Source of the DNA: a virus
DNA length: 64,000 nucleotides
Strand: one strand, 5' to 3'
IMG/VR virus record: IMGVR_UViG_3300050821_001227
Coordinates: 1-64,000 of that record
A model generated the notes under the pieces. That model made no database searches. It was not told where the DNA came from and saw nothing but the letters and a program-made list of their open reading frames with translations. The position numbers and the translations under genes were made by a program. This document shows, piece by piece, positions 5,985 to 32,392 of the stretch; the stretch's first letter is position 1; every line of letters begins with the position of its first letter.

Positions 5985-6371
5985 TTACCAACTGAACGGC
6001 GACCTGCTGGGATGGAAATGGTAAAGCCTCTCCGATTCCTGCTTGATGCGAACCTCATTACGCTTTAGGTCGTCCTCTGCTCGTAGATAACGTTCTCGCA
6101 ATTCCGCAGCGGCTTTGGTATCCGCTACCTCCATAGCGGAACGGTACGCTTCACGTATGATGTTCCACTGGATACGCGCCTGATTCTCGTAGTCCGAGAC
6201 AGTGGTTTGCGGCAAAGGTCGCAGGTCTGACATCTTCATGTGCCGAGTTACTGTTATGCGGAATCCGTCGATGCGCTCAATGTACAGTATGACGCTGTCC
6301 GCTGCCTCACCGATGCGCTTCCATTGCGCCCGCTGATTGGTTATCGTTGGCGGATTATACGGCTTCGTCAT
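5985..6371 (-). CDS. Hypothetical coiled-coil protein
   Basis: 128 residues from ATG 6371, which overlaps the end of fcl by 17 nt. The C-terminal 70 residues are charged and helical (AAAELRERYLRAEDDLKRNE). No family recognised. It is co-transcribed downstream of the glycan operon. Confidence 0.65.
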   Translation of the reverse strand: MTKPYNPPTITNQRAQWKRIGEAADSVILYIERIDGFRITVTRHMKMSDLRPLPQTTVSDYENQARIQWNIIREAYRSAMEVADTKAAAELRERYLRAEDDLKRNEVRIKQESERLYHFHPSRSPFSW

Positions 6372-7293
6372 CACAGTCTCGATACCAAGCAATTGTATTG
6401 TCAAGCCCAGTGGACAGATCAGTCTCGGCGAAGAAACCGAACTCTGTGGCGCGGGTAACATCGAGGCAGCGCAAGGGCTGCCCGTCTGGCTGTGTGGTGT
6501 CGAACACCAAGCGGCCTGTGAACTTCATCTTACTGGCGATTAGTTCAGCCAGCGCCCGAATAGATATGGTCTGCCCAATGCCTAAGTTGATGGGCTCAGG
6601 AGAATCGTATTTCTCTGCCGCCAGCACAATACCTCTGGCTGCGTCATCGACGTACAGGAACTCTCGAAATGCATTACCGCTGCCCCAGAGCACGACCTCA
6701 TCTTTGCCTGCGATTTTTGCCATTAAGAGTTTCTTGATGAGCGCCGGGATGACATGTGAACTATCGTCATTGAAGTTATCACCCGGTCCGTAAAGGTTGA
6801 CGGGCAATATGTGGATACTGTTCAAGCCCCATTGCTGACGGTACGCATTGCCCATGACGAGCAACGCGCGCTTTGCGATTCCATAGGGCGCGTTGGTTTC
6901 TTCTGGGTAACCGTTCCACAAGTTGGTCTCCACAAACGGCGTGGGCGTGTGTTTCGGGTATTCGCACACCGTGCCCAATTGTACGAACTTCTTGACACCA
7001 AAACGCACAGCGCCATGAATCAAATTCAAACCCATGGCCATGTTATCGTAGAATAAGTCGGCAGGCTTGGCTTTATTCAAACCGATGCCACCGCAGTGCG
7101 CTGCGCAGTGGATGATTACATCAACGGGATTCCAGCGCATGAGGTTGTTAACCTGCTCCGGGTCGCGCAGATCGAACATTGAGTGCGTGGGCACGATGAC
7201 ATGCTTGTACCCTTTGCGGGTCAGTTCCTTGTAGATGTTTTGACCCAGAAAGCCATGACCGCCTGTTAGCAGGATTCGTGATTCTGTGTTCAT
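6355..7293 (-). CDS. fcl: GDP-L-fucose synthase (Fcl/WcaG)
   Basis: 312 residues from ATG 7293, which overlaps the gmd stop (ATGA). It is an extended SDR fold: the NAD(P) loop [11 protein letters not shown] is near residue 10, the catalytic Thr region is QLGTVCEYP, and the Tyr-Lys pair is in YGIAKRA. It should perform the epimerase-reductase step that turns GDP-4-keto-6-deoxymannose into GDP-L-fucose. Directly downstream of gmd, it completes a two-enzyme GDP-fucose pathway feeding the GT11 fucosyltransferase in the same operon. Confidence 0.93.
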
Positions 7294-8243
7294 TGCCAGT
7301 CCCATCTCCGTTCGCTGTCCACCATGATGCGAACTAAATCTTTGAACGTTGTCTGCGGAGTCCATCCCAAAATCTTCTTGGCTTTTGAGGCATCCCCGAG
7401 AAGGTAGTCCACCTCAGTTGGACGGAAGTATCGCGGGTCAATTGTTACATGCGGCTCCCATTCCATGTCGAGATACGCAGCGGCCTCATTCAGGAAGTCC
7501 CGCACCGTGTGGGACTCGCCTGTGGCAATCACGAAGTCTTCGGGTTTGTCGATCTGCAACATGCGCCACATCGCATTTACGTATTCTTTTGCGTAGCCCC
7601 AGTCGCGCTTCGCATCCAAATTGCCTAGCGCAAACGTGCCATGCCCGGCAGTCTTGATCTTGACAAGTTCCCGAACGATCTTCTTGGTGACGAAGTCATC
7701 GCCGCGTCGAGGACTCTCGTGGTTGAACAGTATGCCGTTACATGCGAACATGCCGCTCTCGCGATAGTTGACAACGGTCCAATAGGCGAACAGTTTGGCG
7801 ATGCCGTAAGGGCTGCGCGGGTAGAACGGTGTCTGCTCATTCTGTGGAACCTCCGCGATGCCGTATAGTTCACTCGTGCTGGCCTGATAGAAGCGCGGGT
7901 TGCTGCCGCACATGCGGGAAGCTTCCAGCAGACGCAGAGTTCCCAGAGCATCCGTGTTTGCGGTATACTCGGGGTTCTCAAAACTTGTACGTACGTGGCT
8001 TTGAGCCGCAAGGTTGTACACTTCGTCAGGCTGCACAGATTTAAGAACGTTGACCAGAGAACCAGAATCCGTCATGTCGCCGTCGTGGAAGGTGAGCCTG
8101 TCCTTGATGTGGTCGATGCGGCTGGTGCTCGATGTGCTGGTGCGCCGAACAAGCCCGTGCACGTTGTACCCTTTTTCAAGCAGGAGTTCGGACAAGTATG
8201 ATCCGTCCTGTCCCGTTATCCCTGTTATGAGTGCTGTCTTCAC
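7290..8243 (-). CDS. gmd: GDP-mannose 4,6-dehydratase (Gmd)
   Basis: 317 residues from GTG 8243 (GTGA overlap with the upstream stop; GAAAGGA before it). The cofactor loop [14 protein letters not shown] is at the N-terminus. The STSELYG loop and [10 protein letters not shown] (Tyr-x3-Lys) provide the active site, and the family [13 protein letters not shown] segment is intact. The enzyme converts GDP-mannose to GDP-4-keto-6-deoxy-D-mannose, the substrate of the next gene, fcl. Length is slightly short of the usual 340-370 residues, but all core motifs are present. Confidence 0.95.
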
Positions 8244-8974
8244 GCTGTCCTTTCCGCCGAGTACAACTCGGGATGATTCCGCCGTATCGCGGCCTGCAAA
8301 AGTGCATCGTAGTTCTTGCACTCCGTGACCATGGACACGGTCTTGATGCGATAGTGAAACAACGGCTCATTGACAACACTGACCGACCACCCACGCTTCA
8401 TGATGGAGAGCCATAGATTCCAGTCTTCATACCCCGGCGCAAAGCGTCTGCCATCTACGTCGATCACTAGCGGCTGATATCCGTCCGTCTGTTCGAACGC
8501 CGTACGGCGAATCAGGGAACACACGGGAATGCCATTCACCAGCATCTCAACTTCCAGAGTGATCCCGGTCGGAGGCACCTTCTCGTGTCTTGTTCCGAAG
8601 TATACCATATCCGTCGATACAATGCCAACCTTTTGATTGATCATCCGGGGCACCGTCGTTTCGAGGTAGTCGGCGTCGATGTAGTCATCGGCGTCAAGTG
8701 GAAGAATGAACTCCCCATCGCACGCAGTGATCCCGACATTACGGGCTGCCGATAGTCCGCCATTGACTTGTGAGATTAGTTTGATTCGGCCTTCTTTGTT
8801 GTTCGCAGCAATGAAGTCCAGCGCGACACTTGCCGACTGATCCGTCGATCCGTCGTTCACCACGGTCACTGTGAAGTTCCGATAGGATTGAACGACGACC
8901 GACCGTAAGCAGTCGATGATGTACGGCGCTTGATTGTACAACGGAATTACGATGTTTACTTGGCCTTTATTCAT
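8240..8974 (-). CDS. Family 2 glycosyltransferase
   Basis: 244 residues from ATG 8974, with GAGG upstream. Classic GT-A GT2 features: [20 protein letters not shown] at the start, [20 protein letters not shown], and [10 protein letters not shown] with the DxD metal motif. The C-terminal [11 protein letters not shown] carries the ED-x-W motif. It transfers a sugar from a nucleotide donor to a growing glycan; donor and acceptor are unknown. It lies between the other glycosyltransferases and gmd in a coupled operon. Confidence 0.92.
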
Positions 8975-8976
8975 AG

Positions 8977-9774
8977 CTACCTCAGATTCAACTTGCGCCA
9001 TAGCCACAGGGACTTCGCGGCGTGGTAGTCGTCCGACCGCGCATTCCAATTTGATCCCGTTCGATAGTGTACGAATTTCTCAATACCTTCGAAGCGCTCG
9101 GTTTCGTAGTCGGCAGGTCGGAACCCAGAAGCATCGTCGAACTCGGTGTAGTTCGGCTGAATGCGCAGCTTGGGAATCTCCGGATGTGCAGCGAGATAGT
9201 TGTGCGTCTGACCACCCACGTCCACAGCCGTGCCGTTGATCTTTCCACACCACCAGTCGATCTTATCCACTTCCGGCAACTTGGACAGATCGAGAACGGC
9301 CAGCGCGTCCCACATGTACTCAATGCCTCCCGGCCTTCCCTGAGCAATGAAGCATATCGGCGCGCGCTCAAGATAGTTGGATGGCCAAAATGGATCGGAC
9401 AGGAACATGTCCGAGTGGAGGATGCAGACGGGGTTCTGATTTTTGCTGATAAAATTTTCCCATGCCCAGCACCACGGGTAAGCTGCCGCTACGTTGGCGT
9501 TGTAATACGTCCCGTTCGCGTTGAATATCTTTTCTCCCCGGCGCTGCTCTTGCGTGATGTCGTGCTGTACGTCGATCACGTTGATCCCAAGTTCTCCACA
9601 TTTCTCGGCGATCCTTCTGTGACCCTCGGTATCGCGGATGCCGCCCAGTCCCGACATATCGGCATTATTGAACACAGTGAATTCGTACGACTCTCGCATA
9701 TGCTTTTGGAAAGCCATGCACTGTAGCTGAATGAAGTCGGGACGATTGCACGACACGGTGTAGAAGGAAATCAT
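8977..9774 (-). CDS. Putative glycosyltransferase
   Basis: 265 residues. It starts MISFYTVSCNRPDFIQLQ, like GT-A enzymes, and has an HSDMFLSDPFW segment that could be the DxD-type metal site. It matches no CAZy family that I can name. The ATG overlaps the stop of the gene upstream, and the context (all neighbours act on sugars) supports a transferase role. Confidence 0.65.
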   Translation of the reverse strand: MISFYTVSCNRPDFIQLQCMAFQKHMRESYEFTVFNNADMSGLGGIRDTEGHRRIAEKCGELGINVIDVQHDITQEQRRGEKIFNANGTYYNANVAAAYPWCWAWENFISKNQNPVCILHSDMFLSDPFWPSNYLERAPICFIAQGRPGGIEYMWDALAVLDLSKLPEVDKIDWWCGKINGTAVDVGGQTHNYLAAHPEIPKLRIQPNYTEFDDASGFRPADYETERFEGIEKFVHYRTGSNWNARSDDYHAAKSLWLWRKLNLR

Positions 9775-10715
9775 TTGTTCTCCAAGATACGAACCGCGTG
9801 CTCAATCGCCGCGATCTTGTTCAGGTACGTGTGCTTGGTTGCGACTTCGTCCATCAGTGCGTGCAGTTCAGAAACGGGAGTGACCTGCAACCGTTCGAGC
9901 GCGTCGTAGAACAGGCGATACGGGTCCGGATTGTAGATCAGTTTGCCGCCGAACAACTCGTTCGCGAAACGGGAATGCGTGATCCCGAACTGTCCATAAC
10001 TAATATTCTTGAACAGGCGACAGGGGACGTACCCGGACTGAACCTGATCCATGCGCTGAAGCGTAGGAGCCATGTACGACTCTTTGATGAGGCGAACATT
10101 GTCATCAACGCTCACGACCTGATTGTGGCCTTCGTGTCCCGCGTAGCAACCTCCGTAGCCGACGAACTGGATGCCCTGCGCCTCGGCTGCCTGCCGGAAG
10201 CGACCGATGATGGCCTTGTTTGAAGGATCAATCGTGCCGATGTAGTTGATGACCTTGCTGTCCGAATTAAACGTACGTGCAGGCTTGTTAGCTTCAATCT
10301 CGTTTGGCAGCAAGTCTGTTCCCCAACGGAATGACATAGATTTGCTGTTCGCGTCGAACCAAATCTCTGGACCGATCTGCGGCACGTCGCCGTAGGTGTT
10401 GGTCGAAATGTGCACACCGAAGTTGACCACTCGCGTCATTCCCGGCCCGGTAAACAACTCTCGCACGTCGCTGCCGTTGTGGATGAAGTAGTAGCACTCC
10501 TTGGATAAAGGGATGCCGCCAACAACACAGTTCATGGTTAGGAACAGCGTGTTCCCCATGTCGAGTTGTGACAGGTCATCTCCGTCGTCAAGCCACACGG
10601 CCCGCTTGCCCTGATACTCCAGCGCACGTAAGAAAGCGTCATGGATATGGCCGTACGTGTTGTAGGGTCGCTTGGCTCCCCACATCACCCATTGACAGGT
10701 GTTGATGTCAAACAT
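9771..10715 (-). CDS. Putative GT-B type glycosyltransferase
   Basis: 314 residues from ATG 10715 with AAGGAG upstream. It has a Rossmann-like C-terminal half (KVINYIGTIDPSNKAIIGRF, then NVRLIKESYMAPTLQR, then CRLFKNISYGQFGITHS), resembling CgeB/GT-B glycosyltransferases, where the last stretch lies near the donor pocket. The start overlaps the GT6 stop (TAATG). Family assignment is tentative. Confidence 0.55.
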   Translation of the reverse strand: MFDINTCQWVMWGAKRPYNTYGHIHDAFLRALEYQGKRAVWLDDGDDLSQLDMGNTLFLTMNCVVGGIPLSKECYYFIHNGSDVRELFTGPGMTRVVNFGVHISTNTYGDVPQIGPEIWFDANSKSMSFRWGTDLLPNEIEANKPARTFNSDSKVINYIGTIDPSNKAIIGRFRQAAEAQGIQFVGYGGCYAGHEGHNQVVSVDDNVRLIKESYMAPTLQRMDQVQSGYVPCRLFKNISYGQFGITHSRFANELFGGKLIYNPDPYRLFYDALERLQVTPVSELHALMDEVATKHTYLNKIAAIEHAVRILENK

Positions 10716-11422
10716 TATCTGCTCTCCTTGTCCAGTGCTACAAGCCTTGGCCGCAACCCGACCATTCCAGCCTTTTCCCAAATCTTTGAATACCTACCCT
10801 GCGGAAACGCCGTAAGTTCACTCTCTGGGTAACAGAATTCGGGCAGCAGAATGCGGGCAGGCGGGTTGTCATAGAGATAACGATTGAGGTGGGATTCATC
10901 GTGCCAGACAGCAGTGATTCCGTTTTTGGAGTCGCGATCTACCGCCTCGCGTATCGTGCCCGCCATGGCTAAGAATGCGCTGCTAGTCCCGCCGTTGAAA
11001 CCGCCGCAAAAGTAATTACGCGCCTTCGGCAGATAAGCCGCCGAGAATGGGTTCTGTTCCGTTGATCCCGGCAGACCCACGAATCCGGGGTGCAGAGTTG
11101 CCGTGATGCCATTCGAGAAGATGTCGCTCGGTTCGACGCGATCCATAAAGAGCATATCCACATCCGAGTAGAAGATGTAGTCGTAGTTCTTCAGGCGTTC
11201 ACTGGCCGCGTGAAACATGTGGTACCGCAGCAATGTCGCTTGCGGGTAGCCTAGAGTTGGAATCTTCAGGGGCTTATAGAGAAATGGAAAATTATCCGGC
11301 TCGTCTGTGAACATCACCACGTCATATGGCGGTACGAAGAACTTGTGAACGGATTCAAGGAAGCGTATCGCGTGCTTGCGATACGTCTCGCCAGACGCCA
11401 CCAACACCAACGCCGTAGTCAT
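10715..11422 (-). CDS. GT6 family (ABO / alpha-1,3-Gal(NAc)-transferase-like) glycosyltransferase
   Basis: 235 residues from ATG 11422 (ATGA overlap with the GT11 stop). The GT6 signature is unmistakable: DYIFYSDVDMLF (DVD metal motif at 87-89), TLHPGFVG, AYLPKARNYFCGGFNGG, and NGITAVWHDESHLNRYL with the conserved Glu at 176. Family members add Gal or GalNAc alpha-1,3 to the Gal of Fuc-alpha-1,2-Gal. The donor-specificity triad aligning with human ABO residues 266-268 reads C-G-G. Gly at the 268 position is like the A enzyme, hinting at UDP-GalNAc. As I recall, cellular bacterial GT6s mostly have NxN, so DVD is notable. Confidence 0.88.
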   Translation of the reverse strand: MTTALVLVASGETYRKHAIRFLESVHKFFVPPYDVVMFTDEPDNFPFLYKPLKIPTLGYPQATLLRYHMFHAASERLKNYDYIFYSDVDMLFMDRVEPSDIFSNGITATLHPGFVGLPGSTEQNPFSAAYLPKARNYFCGGFNGGTSSAFLAMAGTIREAVDRDSKNGITAVWHDESHLNRYLYDNPPARILLPEFCYPESELTAFPQGRYSKIWEKAGMVGLRPRLVALDKESR

Positions 11423-12156
11423 AACCTTAACCATCTTTCCGGAACAATGTCCTGATCGTCCTGCATTTCGGGCGCGGCGTACCATCGCTTCGGTGCAACA
11501 ACGATGCGCTGCGGGTCACCGTCTCCAAGCCACGCGCCCCACCACGAAAACGATGAATTCGAAATTACGGCGTGTTCGCATACAGAAATAATCTGCATGT
11601 CATGATACTTATCAATCCCGCCCACAACGTGCCAGTGCATTGGGAGATTATCAAGGCACCACTGACTGTCATCAGACACGACGTATATCGTCTTGTCGTT
11701 GCCGCGTTTATTAAGCACGGTGTCTACTGCCCGAATGTACCAATCGCGCTCAGGTATACCATGAAAGTGCTGAAGGTTGACATAATCTCCGCGACGGACG
11801 TGGACAGCGATTGTGCCCTTGGAACGAAGTGCGTAGCGTCGAAAAATAAATGCTCGTCTGACTTCGTTGGCAATATGGGAAAAGTATTTTTCCGACTGCC
11901 AGTAGCCAACCATCACGCTGCCGTCAGGCGGGGCCAGTAAGTCGGCCTGAAATCGAATGCCTTGTTCTTCTATTGCAGGCTGTTTTTTAGTTGAGAGAGG
12001 CAGCCAGCCAAATTCGCTGAGTGCGTACCCGCGATCCGGTTGGGTCAAAGCGGCTGAATTAAATGCTACTTGATACCCGGCCTTTGCCAGAGTGAGGCCG
12101 TATGCCCGTTGAAACATCTGATTTCCGAGACCGCCCATCAGTTTAATAGTAATCAA
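11419..12156 (-). CDS. GT11 alpha-1,2-fucosyltransferase
   Basis: 245 residues from TTG 12156, overlapping the stop of the gene upstream with GGAGGTGG before it; the longer upstream frame would run through the neighbour. Family GT11 motifs: KLMGGLGNQMFQ at the N-terminus, HVRRGDYV near 119-126 (the GDP-fucose site), and a C-terminal ISNSSFSWWGAWLG. The enzyme moves fucose from GDP-L-fucose to the 2-OH of galactose, making an H-antigen-type structure. Its donor is made by Gmd and Fcl downstream; its product is the expected acceptor of the adjacent GT6. Confidence 0.93.
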   Translation of the reverse strand: MITIKLMGGLGNQMFQRAYGLTLAKAGYQVAFNSAALTQPDRGYALSEFGWLPLSTKKQPAIEEQGIRFQADLLAPPDGSVMVGYWQSEKYFSHIANEVRRAFIFRRYALRSKGTIAVHVRRGDYVNLQHFHGIPERDWYIRAVDTVLNKRGNDKTIYVVSDDSQWCLDNLPMHWHVVGGIDKYHDMQIISVCEHAVISNSSFSWWGAWLGDGDPQRIVVAPKRWYAAPEMQDDQDIVPERWLRL

Positions 12157-16823: not shown

Positions 16824-17192
16824 TTACGCTCCTATGCTTAACTGCCATCGTGGAGTATTTGCCCGCTGTGCTGTTCGCCTAGTGTGGCAATTAGCACAAG
16901 TGACTTCACACTTCTCGATTTCCTTCAACACGCGTTCTCGTGAGTTCTGCGCCATACCCGATACATCACGATTATGCCCGTCGTCAACTATGTGATCGAA
17001 CTCAAGCACTAGAGGATCGGCTTCTCCGCAGACCACACAAGAGTGGTCTTTGAGATACAACCAAATCCATAAGCAGTGTGCAGCTTGATTGCTGCGTTTA
17101 CGTTGCGCGTCTAATTTTCTATGGTCTGGGTGCGTCTTCCAGTAATCTCGTTGATAGGCTGCCCATTGAATCGCGTTATCGTACACTGCCAT
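16824..17192 (-). CDS. HNH endonuclease
   Basis: 122 residues from ATG 17192; TTG 17222 would overlap the tmRNA end. The zinc-stabilised HNH fold is seen as CVVCGEADPLVLEFDHIVDDGHN, then CANCHTRRTAQR: two CxxC pairs with the DH catalytic pair between. It begins directly after the hairpin that ends the tmRNA coding piece, so it may be a homing endonuclease that settled at the tmRNA locus. Confidence 0.85.
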   Translation of the reverse strand: MAVYDNAIQWAAYQRDYWKTHPDHRKLDAQRKRSNQAAHCLWIWLYLKDHSCVVCGEADPLVLEFDHIVDDGHNRDVSGMAQNSRERVLKEIEKCEVTCANCHTRRTAQRANTPRWQLSIGA

Positions 17193-17220
17193 AAAATGTG
17201 TTGCCGAGGATTCTGTTGCC

Positions 17221-17610
17221 AAGTTCCTCGGCGGACTCCGTCAACGGATGCGATTAAGCAGCCGCTGCCATTGCAAGAGGTTTAGTCGTTGCAATTAGGG
17301 TTCGCTCTCTTTAAGGATTGAAGCCATCCTGCACAGTCCAGAACTTGCTCATCGTCGCAATCGAAACCATGACGAGCCCACTAAGACACTCATTCATCGA
17401 GACACCTGTTTATGCAGACAGGCCCGCTGCTGAAGGTAGGATGAACTACATCAGCGTCATCATGAATGTCTTGGTGGACTCGGCGGGAATCGAACCCGCG
17501 TCTTACAACGGAGCCTGCACCTTCATACTATGCGTATCTACTCGGGCGGGTTGCTCCGGTGCTGCAACCGCACAGATTAAATTGGTCTCAGACTTCGAGA
17601 CCCGTCCGAT
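17221..17610 (-). ncRNA. ssrA: Circularly permuted (two-piece) tmRNA
   Basis: Read on the minus strand, the acceptor piece comes first and ends in the T-arm GCGGGTTCGATTCCCGC and CGAGTCCACCA (mature 3' end at 17472). After a 92-nt intervening segment the mature 5' end GGGCTCG starts at 17379, followed by TCATGGTTTCGATTGCGAC. GGGCTCG pairs with CGAGTCC over seven pairs, with the G3-U alanine identity pair. Helix 2 also joins the two pieces: TTGCGACG with CGTTGTAA, GAGC with GCTC, and CTGTGC with GCATAG. The tag frame (17292 to 17254) reads GCA through TAA and gives ATTKPLAMAAAA. The acceptor 5' end near 17600 is approximate. It would rescue stalled ribosomes during infection. Confidence 0.88.
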
Positions 17611-17615
17611 ATCGT

Positions 17616-17825
17616 TTACAGCTTGGAAATCTTCTCAACCAGTTCCGCTTCCAGCGCCTTGGTCTTCGTTTCAGCTTCAACAAAGATGGCTTTGACATCT
17701 GCCTCTGCCTTCACAGTGATGCGCAGGGCCGCTGCTTTAGCTTCCGCCACCAGTCCGCGAATTTCTGACACCAACGCGCTGACCTTTTTCGCGATTGCCG
17801 CGAAAATAACTCCGTATACACTCAT
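17616..17825 (-). CDS. Small membrane-anchored coiled-coil protein
   Basis: 69 residues from ATG 17825 with TAGGAGG upstream. A hydrophobic N-terminus (VYGVIFAAIAKKVSALV) precedes a long Ala/Glu/Lys coiled coil (KAEADVKAIFVEAETKTKAL). Its stop lies at the start of the tmRNA acceptor piece. A spanin- or membrane-anchor-like role is possible but not shown. Confidence 0.65.
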   Translation of the reverse strand: MSVYGVIFAAIAKKVSALVSEIRGLVAEAKAAALRITVKAEADVKAIFVEAETKTKALEAELVEKISKL

Positions 17826-18299: not shown

Positions 18300-20873
18300 T
18301 CATTTGCACCAAAAAACTTCTATATGGTACTCTGATTCCATTGTAACACGTTTGAGGTGCGTAGCTGCCGCGCGTCTTATAGCATCCGCAGTTAACAGCG
18401 CAACTTCATCCGCATTGCTTTTTAGGCACCTGACAACTAGCTCGTCATGCACCATTTTGATGAGTTTCGCGCCGTACTTTGGAAAGACGTGCCAGAGAAA
18501 CTCTTTTCCCTTTTCGTCGCTGCCGCTGCCCATAGCTAATTTAATCACGGAAGCGTTACAGCTTTGTATTGGCATATTCTTGCCCGCTCGTTCGATTATA
18601 CCATAGAGCGCCCGCATCGCCTGTTTTACGTCTGGCGGCTTCTCATCGTCCTTGTGCTCGAAGACGAACTTCAAAGCGTCATCATAGGATGGCTCCTTGA
18701 ACAATTCGCGGCGTCCGAAAAGATCACGCGCCTTCAGGTTGTCGATAGCCCTCTGGCCGGAAAGGTCGATGAATGACCAGAGCACGGGCAATGCGCCACG
18801 GTGAGCCTTAAGAACCTCTTTGCAGAAGTCCTCGGGCTTCTTGATCTGTACCGACAGCGCCTTCGGACCCAGACCGTACGCGATGCCGAAGTTTACAGGC
18901 TTGAAGTCGTTGCGGTACTCGTTGTGTTTCGGGCATTCGCATTTGAACTTCTTGTACTCGCCTTGTTCATCCAGCGCGTAGAAGGCGCAAGGCGGTACCG
19001 GGACCATCTCGCCTTTCTTGTTCTTCATCGTGTCGCCGGGGCGGGCAGTCATCGACTCCCACTTCTCGGCATCCACGAGTTCGCAACAGATGCTGTGAAC
19101 GTCCTGACCCTTGTTGAAGGCATCAATCCAAATCTTCTCGTTCGCCATCTCCGCGATTATGCGGAGTTCAGCGCCCGACATATCGATGGTCAGTAAGACG
19201 TAAGACTCATCCTCGACTTCCGTGTGCGTGCAAGTCTTGCCGCACTTCGTGCACTTGTACGTTTCGATGGCGAGGTGCGCTTCGTTGCGCGTGGCGCGTT
19301 TGCCGCAGCACTTCGAGTTCTTGAGCCCGATGATGTCTTCGTCGGGTGGACCTGCGACGAAGCAGGCGCGAGTCTCCTTATCATGAGGAAGATTCTGGCC
19401 ATTAGGCCCGCTACTAGAACTGCGGCCTGTGTCAGCGTCGTATTGGTTGTACTGCGGGTGCAGCCTGTGATCGTGCGGGTTGATCCAACCCTCTTCGTCG
19501 TTGTCTTTTGCCGGGGCATCGTCTTTCCATTCTGTCACCCACGTCATGCCGTAGGTGCCGATTTCCTTCGCGATCTTGCGGTACTCTGATAACGCTTTGC
19601 AGATCGGAATGTGCTCGTACTTCTCCAGCACCTCAGAAGCCGTAGACTTCATCTTCTCCAGCCCATCGACTTGATGCAGGACATCCTTGATCTGCGTCGG
19701 AGAGTTGTAGTTGATGAACGCCTCACCTTGACAGGTCTCGGACTTCGTCCTGCGCGACGTGTTGGCTTTCTTCATGTCGCTGTGCGCAGTCTTCAGCGCC
19801 GTGCGGTTGTCTACGATTAGCTTGTCGGCGTCTGTGTATACAGAATGCTTCTTGCCGTCCTCGCCCACGACTTCGCCGATAGCCTTCGGCAGCTTGATCG
19901 ATTTCCATCGCTCCTCAGCGTCTGTGATCTGCTTCTCTGAATAGGCTAGACCACCCTTCTTGCCAACGTAGTGGATGAACTCCTGATCCAATTCGGCCAG
20001 CGAGACGACTAAGTCCAACTTACGTTTCTCGACCTTCGCGGTCCAGCGCGGGATGTCGATACAGTCGCCATGAACGGTCATGTCTTGGAATGATCCGATA
20101 GCATCATTCTCAATCTGGCAAATTTCTTTCAGGTTGTCGCCACAGCACTGCGCAGGGATGTTAATCCAGCGCGGGAGCCGGTTATGGATCATGCCACGTG
20201 TGACCATGTCCTGCGCCGACTTGATAACGAATGGATACCGTACGTCACCGCAAGCGTAGAAGATTTGCTCGTCGCTCAACGGGTCTGTCATGTTGAATGA
20301 TGCCTGATATTCTTTGTCGATGTCTTTGCGGAGCCAGCGACGGATGACCGACCGCATACTGAACATGTCGTACCGCTTGAGCGGCAGCCTGCCCGCGTAA
20401 ATGGCTTTCTCGACCATCATACAATCGTAGAAATTCTGCGACCGCAGACCGAACAACCAGTAGTGCGAGAGATATTCGAAGCCCAGATTGAAGCCGACCT
20501 TCTTGTGCTTGCGCTCACACAAATACGGACGCAGTGTGTCAACCAGCTTCTTGAGCCGCCAGTCCATGTGCTTGCCGTAGTGGCCTTGGCTGTCCCGCAG
20601 GATGGCCGAGTCATTGCCGACGATACCAAGCAGGTCGATCAGGAACTGCTTCTCCACGTTACCGAACTGCATGGTGCGTGCCCTGCGCCAATAGAAGTCG
20701 CGCAACGGCGTTGTTTCAATGTCCCAACCGAACTCAGGATGAGCGTCCAGCCATGTGGTCAACTCGTCAAGCTGATCGATGTCGGTGATTACCGTGATGT
20801 CTGGAGGAGTCTTGAGTTCGAGCATCGGAAGATACTCTTCCTCAACCTCCGATTTCGCTTTGGCTGTAGCCAT
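18300..20873 (-). CDS. Family A DNA polymerase with 3'-5' exonuclease
   Basis: 857 residues. The exonuclease motifs are GWDIETTPL (I), GFNLGFEYLSHY (II) and YACGDVRYP (III, Tyr-x3-Asp). The polymerase motifs are A, TIDMSGAELRIIAEM; B, RNDFKPVNFGIAYGLG; and C, IKMVHDELVV. It copies phage DNA and proofreads. Two Cys-rich insertions are unusual: CCGKRAT ... CTKCGKTC just before motif A, and CECPKHNEYRND between A and B, both possibly zinc-binding. It lies downstream of the primase-helicase and SSB genes, so the replication genes form one minus-strand cluster. Confidence 0.95.
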   Translation of the reverse strand: MATAKAKSEVEEEYLPMLELKTPPDITVITDIDQLDELTTWLDAHPEFGWDIETTPLRDFYWRRARTMQFGNVEKQFLIDLLGIVGNDSAILRDSQGHYGKHMDWRLKKLVDTLRPYLCERKHKKVGFNLGFEYLSHYWLFGLRSQNFYDCMMVEKAIYAGRLPLKRYDMFSMRSVIRRWLRKDIDKEYQASFNMTDPLSDEQIFYACGDVRYPFVIKSAQDMVTRGMIHNRLPRWINIPAQCCGDNLKEICQIENDAIGSFQDMTVHGDCIDIPRWTAKVEKRKLDLVVSLAELDQEFIHYVGKKGGLAYSEKQITDAEERWKSIKLPKAIGEVVGEDGKKHSVYTDADKLIVDNRTALKTAHSDMKKANTSRRTKSETCQGEAFINYNSPTQIKDVLHQVDGLEKMKSTASEVLEKYEHIPICKALSEYRKIAKEIGTYGMTWVTEWKDDAPAKDNDEEGWINPHDHRLHPQYNQYDADTGRSSSSGPNGQNLPHDKETRACFVAGPPDEDIIGLKNSKCCGKRATRNEAHLAIETYKCTKCGKTCTHTEVEDESYVLLTIDMSGAELRIIAEMANEKIWIDAFNKGQDVHSICCELVDAEKWESMTARPGDTMKNKKGEMVPVPPCAFYALDEQGEYKKFKCECPKHNEYRNDFKPVNFGIAYGLGPKALSVQIKKPEDFCKEVLKAHRGALPVLWSFIDLSGQRAIDNLKARDLFGRRELFKEPSYDDALKFVFEHKDDEKPPDVKQAMRALYGIIERAGKNMPIQSCNASVIKLAMGSGSDEKGKEFLWHVFPKYGAKLIKMVHDELVVRCLKSNADEVALLTADAIRRAAATHLKRVTMESEYHIEVFWCK

Positions 20874-30298: not shown

Positions 30299-32392
30299 AT
30301 GGCTGGTGAACTGGAGATTCTACAGGCTGAGTTTGTAGCAGCCTTCCAGAACAAGAACTATCAACACAAAGGAATGCCAGAAGATGAGTACGACACTCTG
30401 GCATTGACGGCATTTGGTCACTACACGAATAAGCAGCAGTTCGATGCGATGCAGTCGTGGGTGATTTTCAATGGCGGAAAGCGCAAGGCTGGACTCCCGG
30501 CTCCCGGCAGTTGTGAATACGATCATCTGCGGCTAACGGTTGCGCGTTATCGCTTCATGTGCCAGACGAACCTGTTCTTCCTTTGCAAGATGTTGGGTTA
30601 CTCCAAAGTCACCGACAGAGAGTACAACTGGTTCAATCCCCAGACAAAGGGTTGGGAGACGCACAACACGCACGAGGAAATCTGTAACGAGTTCTTTGTG
30701 CCGAAAGACCCGGCGCACTTCGCCACCTTCGAAGCGTTCGCGACCGACGCGACCGCGAAGAGAATGTACAAGCAGCGATTGCTGCTCGTTCCTCGTGGCG
30801 GATTCAAATCGTCCATCAACATGGCCGACTGCGTTCAGTGGATTCTGTGTTTCCCTGAAGTCACCATCGGCATCTTGACTGGAAAGTTAGGATTGGCTGA
30901 AGACTTCGTCGGAGAAGTCAAGGCGCACTTCACCCTTGATGAGAACTTCGAGAAGGACAGCGAGTACAAGGGCTTCCGCCCGCGACTCCTGACAAACAAG
31001 TTCACAGGCGCTCAAACCGTATCTATGCTTCAGGTGTTGTTTCCCGAGCATTGCGTAAAGCCTCAAGAAGGCAAAGCCACTGAGTTCCAGACACCCGCCG
31101 TCACGGCTGGTGACAAAGAGCCAACGATTCGCGCTACAGGTATTGAGCAGTCATTGGCTGGATCACACTTCTGCTTACTGAAGCTGGACGACGTGGTCAC
31201 CGAAGAGAACGTTGAGACCGTAACCCGCATTGAGGGCATCAATCACCGCATCGGTGTTGACAAAGCCTTGATGCACGCATTCGGTTTCTTCGACGTAATC
31301 GGTACGTGGTACGATGAGAGAGACTACTACGGTAAGCAAATCGCTTACGACGACAAGTTGTTCTTGGCTTCACAGCGCAACCCGGCGATGAAGATTTACC
31401 GCCGCGCTGTATGGTGGCCAACCGCCGAATGCTTGGCGGCTGGTAAGATTGAGTCCGAGTGGACTGAACAAGACGTACATCTCTGGTTCCCCGCAGTTCT
31501 AACGTTCGACTTGATGAAAGCGTCGGCGATGACGGAGCCCGATGTATTTGCCATCAAGTATCTGAACGATCCTCGTCAGATCAACAAGATTAAGTTCCCG
31601 CGCGAACTCTTGATTCGCCGCACGATTAACCATAATCTGTGCCCGCATCAAGGCATGATCGTTACGACCGTGGATACGGCCTACTCGACGCAGAGTTGGG
31701 CAGACTATACCGTCATCATGACGGCAATCATCCATGGCGGGAGATTCTACATCATCAACATGGTGCGCGGAAGGTTCAACGAGTACGAACTTCCAGCGGT
31801 CATCGCGACTGTCGGGTATAAGTGGAAGCCGAAGCAGATCATCATCGAGGAGGTGATGGGCACTGCATTCGTCAAACGCGAAATCCGGCGCGAGATGGAA
31901 AAGCTGAAGATTAGTATTCCGCTCCGTAGCGCAGGTCTGGGTCAAGGCAACAAAGCCAGATCGAAATCCATGAAAGCCAAGCCAGTCCTGAGACTGCTTG
32001 GCGACCAACGCATGTTCTTCGTCAACTCTTGTGAAAGTCTCGAAGAAATTTATACCGAGATGTCTCAGTTCACTGGGACAGCGGACGACAAGCATGACGA
32101 CATCATCTCAGCAATTTCTCTGCTGGCTGAGGTCTTCGCGCCGTACGCGGACATGCACTCACAAATTAACGCGGTTGAAACTTCGTACGCGGCGGACGCG
32201 CAGTCTTACGAGCATCACCAGATGATTTACGGTCTGGGTAAGTACGCTCAACAGAATCCGGCCTTCGCAACGGATGACAACCCGAACACGCAGTTTCAGT
32301 TAGAGCAGGCCGCGCAGGCCGTTGAGCAGTCCGACGATAATCCGTTGGATGACTTGTTCGGCGGTGACCGTGCGCTGAAGACGGTGATCTGA
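30299..32392 (+). CDS. terL: Terminase large subunit
   Basis: 697 residues. ATPase: Walker A-like RLLLVPRGGFKSSINMA, Walker B CLLKLDDVVTEEN, with Glu following. RNase H-like nuclease: TTVDTAYSTQSWADYTVI (first Asp), QIIIEEVMGTAF (Glu) and DKHDDIISAISLLAE (last Asp). It cuts concatemeric DNA and pumps it into the prohead through the portal, two genes downstream. No small subunit is recognised in the window. Confidence 0.93.
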   Translation: MAGELEILQAEFVAAFQNKNYQHKGMPEDEYDTLALTAFGHYTNKQQFDAMQSWVIFNGGKRKAGLPAPGSCEYDHLRLTVARYRFMCQTNLFFLCKMLGYSKVTDREYNWFNPQTKGWETHNTHEEICNEFFVPKDPAHFATFEAFATDATAKRMYKQRLLLVPRGGFKSSINMADCVQWILCFPEVTIGILTGKLGLAEDFVGEVKAHFTLDENFEKDSEYKGFRPRLLTNKFTGAQTVSMLQVLFPEHCVKPQEGKATEFQTPAVTAGDKEPTIRATGIEQSLAGSHFCLLKLDDVVTEENVETVTRIEGINHRIGVDKALMHAFGFFDVIGTWYDERDYYGKQIAYDDKLFLASQRNPAMKIYRRAVWWPTAECLAAGKIESEWTEQDVHLWFPAVLTFDLMKASAMTEPDVFAIKYLNDPRQINKIKFPRELLIRRTINHNLCPHQGMIVTTVDTAYSTQSWADYTVIMTAIIHGGRFYIINMVRGRFNEYELPAVIATVGYKWKPKQIIIEEVMGTAFVKREIRREMEKLKISIPLRSAGLGQGNKARSKSMKAKPVLRLLGDQRMFFVNSCESLEEIYTEMSQFTGTADDKHDDIISAISLLAEVFAPYADMHSQINAVETSYAADAQSYEHHQMIYGLGKYAQQNPAFATDDNPNTQFQLEQAAQAVEQSDDNPLDDLFGGDRALKTVI

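Follow-up and report, generated by a model that had tools for sequence, protein, structure and literature searches.

A circularly permuted tmRNA gene in a soil phage related to the Tunturiibacter phage Tunturi_3

tmRNA is the RNA that rescues stuck ribosomes. Its circularly permuted, two-piece form has been linked with three bacterial clades and, among phages, chiefly with marine and aquatic ones. A gene of this form was encountered in a soil phage, on the minus strand at approximately 17564–17203 of a stretch of 64,000 nucleotides (the window; positions 1 to 64,000 of the IMG/VR virus record IMGVR_UViG_3300050821_001227). The locus raises the question of whether the gene is genuine, which host the phage infects and what purpose a tmRNA of its own would serve.

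Anatomy and detection of the tmRNA gene

In minus-strand order the gene starts with the acceptor piece (17472–17564), which contains a 5' extension, the P2 strands, the T-arm and the acceptor 3' strand CGAGTCC followed by ACCA. Its extent was derived from ARAGORN, the RF04321 alignment and pairing counts, and its 5' boundary is approximate. An intervening segment of 92 nt (17380–17471), delimited by sequence and fold, separates it from the coding piece (17203–17379). The latter, identified by RF04321 and ARAGORN, begins with GGGCTCG (17379–17373), continues with the tag frame and ends in a hairpin from which its 3' boundary was placed. The acceptor stem GGGCTCG/CGAGTCC forms between the two pieces with 7/7 paired positions, including a G3-U70 pair of the alanine type. 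The P2 segments also pair across the pieces as in RF04321 (GCAUA/UGUGC; GUGC/GUUC with one mismatch; CGU/ACG; UAA/UUG), and the intervening segment is folded back on itself by its complementary ends AGACATTCAT/ATGAATGAGTGTCT. The tag reading frame (17254–17292, minus strand), found by ARAGORN and by reading of the frame, is preceded by CCCTAATT and opens with the resume codon GCA. Its codons GCA ACG ACT AAA CCT CTT GCA ATG GCA GCG GCT GCT TAA encode the tag ATTKPLAMAAAA.

A first-pass annotation made from the letters alone had described a permuted phage-borne tmRNA with the CCA end (17472) ahead of the mature GGGCTCG end, a seven-pair acceptor stem with G3-U, helix-2 pairing between the pieces, complementary flanks of the intervening segment and a 12-residue tag behind a resume context. 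All of these elements were recovered. The locus had been placed at 17221–17610; the location was right, whereas the 3' end fell short, since the conserved 3' hairpin GCCGAGGA-ACTTGGCAACAGAA-TCCTCGGC (17203–17232, minus strand; loop motif AACAGAA) runs 18 nt further, to 17203.

ARAGORN reported a permuted tmRNA (tmRNA*) at 17163–17564 with the same tag. The Rfam model RF04321 (tmRNA_permuted) matched over its full length with 74.4 bits against a gathering cut-off of 47 (E 2e-12 for the window). Thus, two independent detectors agree, and the RF04321 score is beyond chance. The first-pass annotation had also proposed a comparison with the clade-specific permuted models. None of the three in Rfam reached its cut-off, the best being RF01850 (beta_tmRNA) with 40.5 bits against 84; the general model RF04321 did. 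A one-piece tmRNA elsewhere, which had been named as an alternative source of these sequences, was not found nearby: RF00023 gave no match at the gathering threshold, and no T-arm/CCACCA lies downstream. Folding of the 402-nt region yielded z = −3.5 relative to shuffled sequences. When the two mature pieces were cofolded, the expected helices formed, with an energy no better than that of shuffles (38/200 equally low). Promoter- and terminator-like matches around the gene occurred at chance level only.

Directly upstream of the tmRNA gene lies a small ORF of 69 amino acids on the same strand (17616–17825), coiled-coil-like and ending in KISKL. Similar Lys/Ala/Glu-rich small ORFs are found directly upstream of the tmRNA in Tunturi_3 and in two related contigs (L198 and L204). 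An HNH endonuclease gene (16824–17192, minus strand; PHROG 2255, E 1.5e-21) follows just downstream; its mechanical ORF spans 16824–17222, and the likely ATG start is at 17192. Farther away, genes for nucleotide-sugar epimerases and glycosyltransferases, one of the latter from family 6, are clustered on the minus strand at 6355–11485.

Related phages and the probable host

The source record is a virus contig of 83,210 bp with genes for terminase, portal, head protein, a family A DNA polymerase (PolA) and helicase; it is linear and may be incomplete. These genes bear out the assignment of the tmRNA to a phage. The large terminase gene (TerL; 30299–32392, plus strand) has its nearest cultured relative in the Tunturiibacter phage Tunturi_3, which is the sole close cultured relative by both TerL and PolA (PolA: 18300–20873, minus strand). 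The two phages are collinear, with identities of 83% for the major head protein, 62% for the portal, 47% for TerL and 41% for PolA. With its collinear TerL-portal-head genes and related PolA the window phage belongs to the Tunturi_3-like Caudoviricetes. Because of this collinearity an acidobacterial host is indicated, and the relatives suggest that a member of the Acidobacteriota (Terriglobia) is the most likely one. TerL-like genes were present in 4/399 genomes of the same class, and these genomes are without permuted tmRNA.

Permuted tmRNA genes were detected in three of the five cultured Tunturi phages, i.e. Tunturi_3 (63.3 bits), Tunturi_4 (79.2 bits) and Tunturi_5 (86.4 bits), which are a podovirus, a siphovirus and a jumbo myovirus; none was found in Tunturi_1 and Tunturi_2. 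Tunturi_4 has PolA in common with the window phage, plus a weak match of one further protein. When IMG/VR contigs were searched, the window PolA alone retrieved none, and an alignment of three PolA sequences retrieved relatives. Seven PolA-related contigs also contain a permuted tmRNA. Four of them (L194 to L197) were counted once, having identical scores, lengths and ARAGORN calls. In the window, Tunturi_3, L194, L201 and L204 alike, PolA and the tmRNA share a strand, with the tmRNA on the downstream side. In 38 further contigs obtained by a pattern scan PolA was not found, save for two weak partial matches; these contigs are therefore regarded as other phages or fragments.

The acceptor stem is paired at 7/7 positions in the window, Tunturi_3, Tunturi_4, L194, L198, L201 and L204. 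Both sides change at pairs 4, 5 and 6, and G3-U is invariant in all seven sequences. The stem of Tunturi_5, read from its alignment, follows the same pattern (GGGCCCG/CGGGUCC). In the 3' hairpin the loop AACAGAA is constant while the arms vary, as in the window (GCCGAGGA/TCCTCGGC), L204 (GTGGAGA/TCTCCAC) and L201 (GCCTCTCT/AGAGAGGC). The loop motif is missing from Tunturi_4, Tunturi_5 and L198. Phage-borne permuted tmRNAs that encode beta-like tags (L014, L025 and L037) have it as well, and it is found in 0/9 one-piece tmRNA genes of Acidobacteriota. The common loop hints at shared descent with a beta-type permuted lineage rather than at a new permutation within the Acidobacteriota. A tree built from the conserved 5' and 3' regions of 53 sequences left most forks open and placed the window in no supported set. 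A blastn search against the phage collection revealed no relatives of the tmRNA at the DNA level. ARAGORN missed the permuted tmRNAs of Tunturi_3, L198 and Tunturi_5 and gave another tag for L194 (entries L046, L222, L235 and L194), probably due to long or GTC-resumed tags.

tmRNA genes of Acidobacteriota and the origin of the phage gene

One-piece tmRNA genes with 150–204 bits were detected in 9/10 named Acidobacteriota genomes; the tenth, a MAG, showed no tmRNA match over the cut-off. The one-piece tmRNA of Tunturiibacter (Edaphobacter) lichenicola encodes the tag AEPQFALAA. We also surveyed 396 Acidobacteriota genomes, using strict filters that may have let rare exceptions pass unseen. RF04321 exceeded its cut-off in 11/396 genomes, and 11/11 of these loci are one-piece tmRNA genes (RF00023 149–198 bits). 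These false matches (L179–L189) scored 54–72 bits. A tRNA-Asp precedes the tmRNA in 10/11 of them and a second RF00023-like match in L181. Matches to one-piece tmRNAs, mostly to those that follow a tRNA, are a systematic false-positive mode of permuted tmRNA annotation by RF04321. The matches were consequently rejected as a sign of a permuted tmRNA in the host. In L181 the second match (1696–2028, 110.5 bits) adjoins the one-piece tmRNA and possibly represents a duplicated or displaced ssrA. In the genomes checked only one-piece tmRNA was found in Acidobacteriota, and the phage tmRNA was therefore not simply borrowed from the host.

Is the window gene itself such a false match, composed of the 3' half of a tRNA and the 5' half of a one-piece tmRNA? 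The 11 acidobacterial loci, ten of them located behind a tRNA, illustrate how readily the model can be misled. However, ARAGORN called no tRNA at the window site and scored the locus as permuted. Apart from the upstream one, no T-arm/CCACCA lies nearby, no one-piece 3' half exists downstream, and the upstream CCA arm pairs at 7/7 positions with the downstream GGGCTCG. For these reasons the artefact is excluded; we count it as refuted, its residual probability being negligible. Another explanation assumes that the actual host is a bacterium with a permuted tmRNA of its own, for example a betaproteobacterium, and that the phage copy merely matches its host. This would agree with beta_tmRNA as the best clade model, albeit below its cut-off, and with the hairpin loop AACTTGGCAACAGAATC, which L014 and L037, two phage permuted tmRNAs with a beta-like tag, have as well. 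Against it stand the collinear genes of a Tunturiibacter phage that is the sole close cultured relative by TerL and PolA, as well as the three isolates grown on Tunturiibacter that have a permuted tmRNA. We consider such a host rather improbable.

The first-pass annotation had read the permuted form as a possible hint at the host lineage and expected an alphaproteobacterial, betaproteobacterial or cyanobacterial host. This expectation was not upheld, as the relatives of the phage infect Acidobacteriota, in which only one-piece tmRNA was found. Phages of this phylum carry the permuted form all the same, and the form of a phage tmRNA therefore does not reveal the host.

Phage tags and the function of the tmRNA

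The window tag ATTKPLAMAAAA consists of 12 amino acids, and the tags of Tunturi_3 (VNKIDRSVVAVVPASRKVRVAQFATMLAA), Tunturi_4 (ANTVTSTIRNVASVRTGFFRSAEPITNRYAVAA) and Tunturi_5 (AKNSPVVRGTAKVLSFARKFVPAVSSTRAFAMAA) of 29, 33 and 34 amino acids, respectively. Those of the related contigs are VTESVSHSRVRFSVRKSVVAAQLLAA (L194), ATNVTSKRSNVVEFPFRKVSVTRSVARLAA (L198), ANTNVLAMSAAAGA (L201) and ANSTYDKMVAGLLAETSDVQSTELVMA (L204). ARAGORN had missed or misread the frames of Tunturi_3, L194, L198 and Tunturi_5, which were accordingly determined by hand. Since some alternative frames are open at similar lengths, these manual readings depend on the resume context and on termini rich in alanine. In 8/8 distinct members the tag frame is open, follows a plausible resume context, has a stop codon and is alanine-rich or alanine-ending at its terminus. 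None of the phage tags equals the 9-amino-acid host tag AEPQFALAA; they are mostly far longer (26–34 amino acids) and basic. Several have a net charge of +3 to +5, and L204 is an exception with −3. The suggestion in the first-pass annotation that the phage copy may alter tagging is thus in line with the difference between the phage tag and the Tunturiibacter-type tag. The window tag ends in AAA instead of LAA, and the ends of L201 (AGA) and L204 (VMA) depart further, so that degradation by ClpXP is not assured.

Unusually long tags of 28–30 amino acids (e.g. VNAKTSTGEVTVSGKGVKFSARTAKATLAV) were also noted in permuted tmRNAs of five IMG/VR contigs without detectable relatives of the window PolA (L009, L020, L032, L013 and L021). 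In a virus contig of 349,660 bp (L033), a permuted tmRNA (tag ANEANYRMAA) is accompanied by two tRNAs with the anticodon CTA, which ARAGORN labelled tRNA-Pyl and which are possibly suppressor tRNAs.

The most likely function of the window gene is trans-translation during infection with a non-host tag. A single precursor RNA would be transcribed, from which host tRNA-processing enzymes would excise the 92-nt intervening segment, as judged from the gene's anatomy and from what is known of two-piece tmRNAs. The acceptor and coding pieces would stay joined via the acceptor stem and P2, and host AlaRS would attach alanine to the G3-U70 acceptor stem. A search of eight phage records turned up no SmpB, so that of the host is presumably used. 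Together with it, the phage tmRNA would rescue ribosomes stalled on broken mRNAs in infected cells and append ATTKPLAMAAAA in place of the host tag. The benefit for the phage may be that ribosomes are kept available, while tagged fragments would be directed to proteases or to another fate set by the phage tag. Short RF-1-domain proteins of 112–115 amino acids with a GGQ motif are encoded by Tunturi_4 (PP885687, 43946–44293) and Tunturi_3 (PP885686, 82469–82807). The Tunturi_4 gene is located 4 nt from the permuted tmRNA match, which suggests a ribosome-rescue cassette. Such proteins were not found in the window record or its contig relatives.

The RNA could instead act mainly as an inhibitor or decoy that sequesters host SmpB, AlaRS or EF-Tu and thereby shuts down host trans-translation. 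Such a role was suggested for mycobacteriophage DS6A and its TLD-only tmRNA, and a DS6A-like RNA inhibits tmRNA (PMC4131195; PMC11915505). As no SmpB was found in the phages, a phage copy expressed at a high level would be a competitor of the host RNA. However, an open tag frame, a plausible resume codon and a stop codon are kept in all eight distinct members, none of which a decoy would need, and we regard this role as unlikely. Alternatively, the gene might be what is left, in degenerate form, of a host ssrA after a prophage excised imprecisely or an attachment site was used. ssrA is a common integration site. A fragment scenario for prophages has been discussed (PMC9004378). Yet the gene is complete, covariation of its pairs extends to distant relatives, the location close to PolA is conserved, and the ssrA genes of Acidobacteriota that were examined are one-piece. 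This origin is disfavoured as highly improbable. We conclude that the locus is a genuine circularly permuted ssrA of a Tunturi_3-like phage, with Acidobacteriota as the most likely host, and that it probably serves in trans-translation with a phage tag.

Permuted tmRNA in phages as such is already known. In one study 53 of 133 unique phage tmRNA structures were two-piece, and 50 of these 53 originated from marine or aquatic samples (PMC9004378). The Methylophilales phage Melnitz and other marine phages described there encode a permuted two-piece tmRNA like the window phage, but the lineages discussed there have permuted tmRNA themselves, whereas the group studied here infects Acidobacteriota, for which only the one-piece form was found. 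Melnitz also has a glutamine riboswitch, which was not present in the Rfam scan of the window. The beta_tmRNA family is nearest among the clade models although below its cut-off, and phage tmRNAs with beta-like tags have the 3' hairpin loop in common with the window. Mycobacteriophages of the Bxz1 group and Bacillus phage G are likewise listed with a phage-borne ssrA (PMC4131195); the window gene is permuted and split. Closest are Tunturi_3, Tunturi_4 and Tunturi_5 with their permuted tmRNAs, Tunturi_3 also in gene order and in the position near PolA. In the description of the Tunturi phages, where tRNA genes were determined with tRNAscan-SE, tmRNA is unmentioned (PMC11924767). No report of permuted tmRNA in acidobacteriophages was found in the open-licence literature searched. 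What appears to be new is its occurrence in a group of acidobacteriophages, cultured isolates included, with mostly long basic tags and a host phylum in which only one-piece tmRNA was found.

A wider interpretation is put forward tentatively. Acidobacteriota phages of unrelated morphotypes might keep a phage-adapted permuted tmRNA lineage of their own while their hosts possess only the one-piece form, and might replace the host degradation tag by long, mostly basic tags (26–34 amino acids in most members), leading to a different fate of tagged nascent proteins. As Tunturi_3, Tunturi_4 and Tunturi_5 and their hosts are in culture, the purpose of a phage tmRNA becomes testable. Since the tags differ (AEPQFALAA versus, e.g., VNKIDRSVVAVVPASRKVRVAQFATMLAA), the tmRNA that acted in infected cells, phage or host, can be identified by mass spectrometry.
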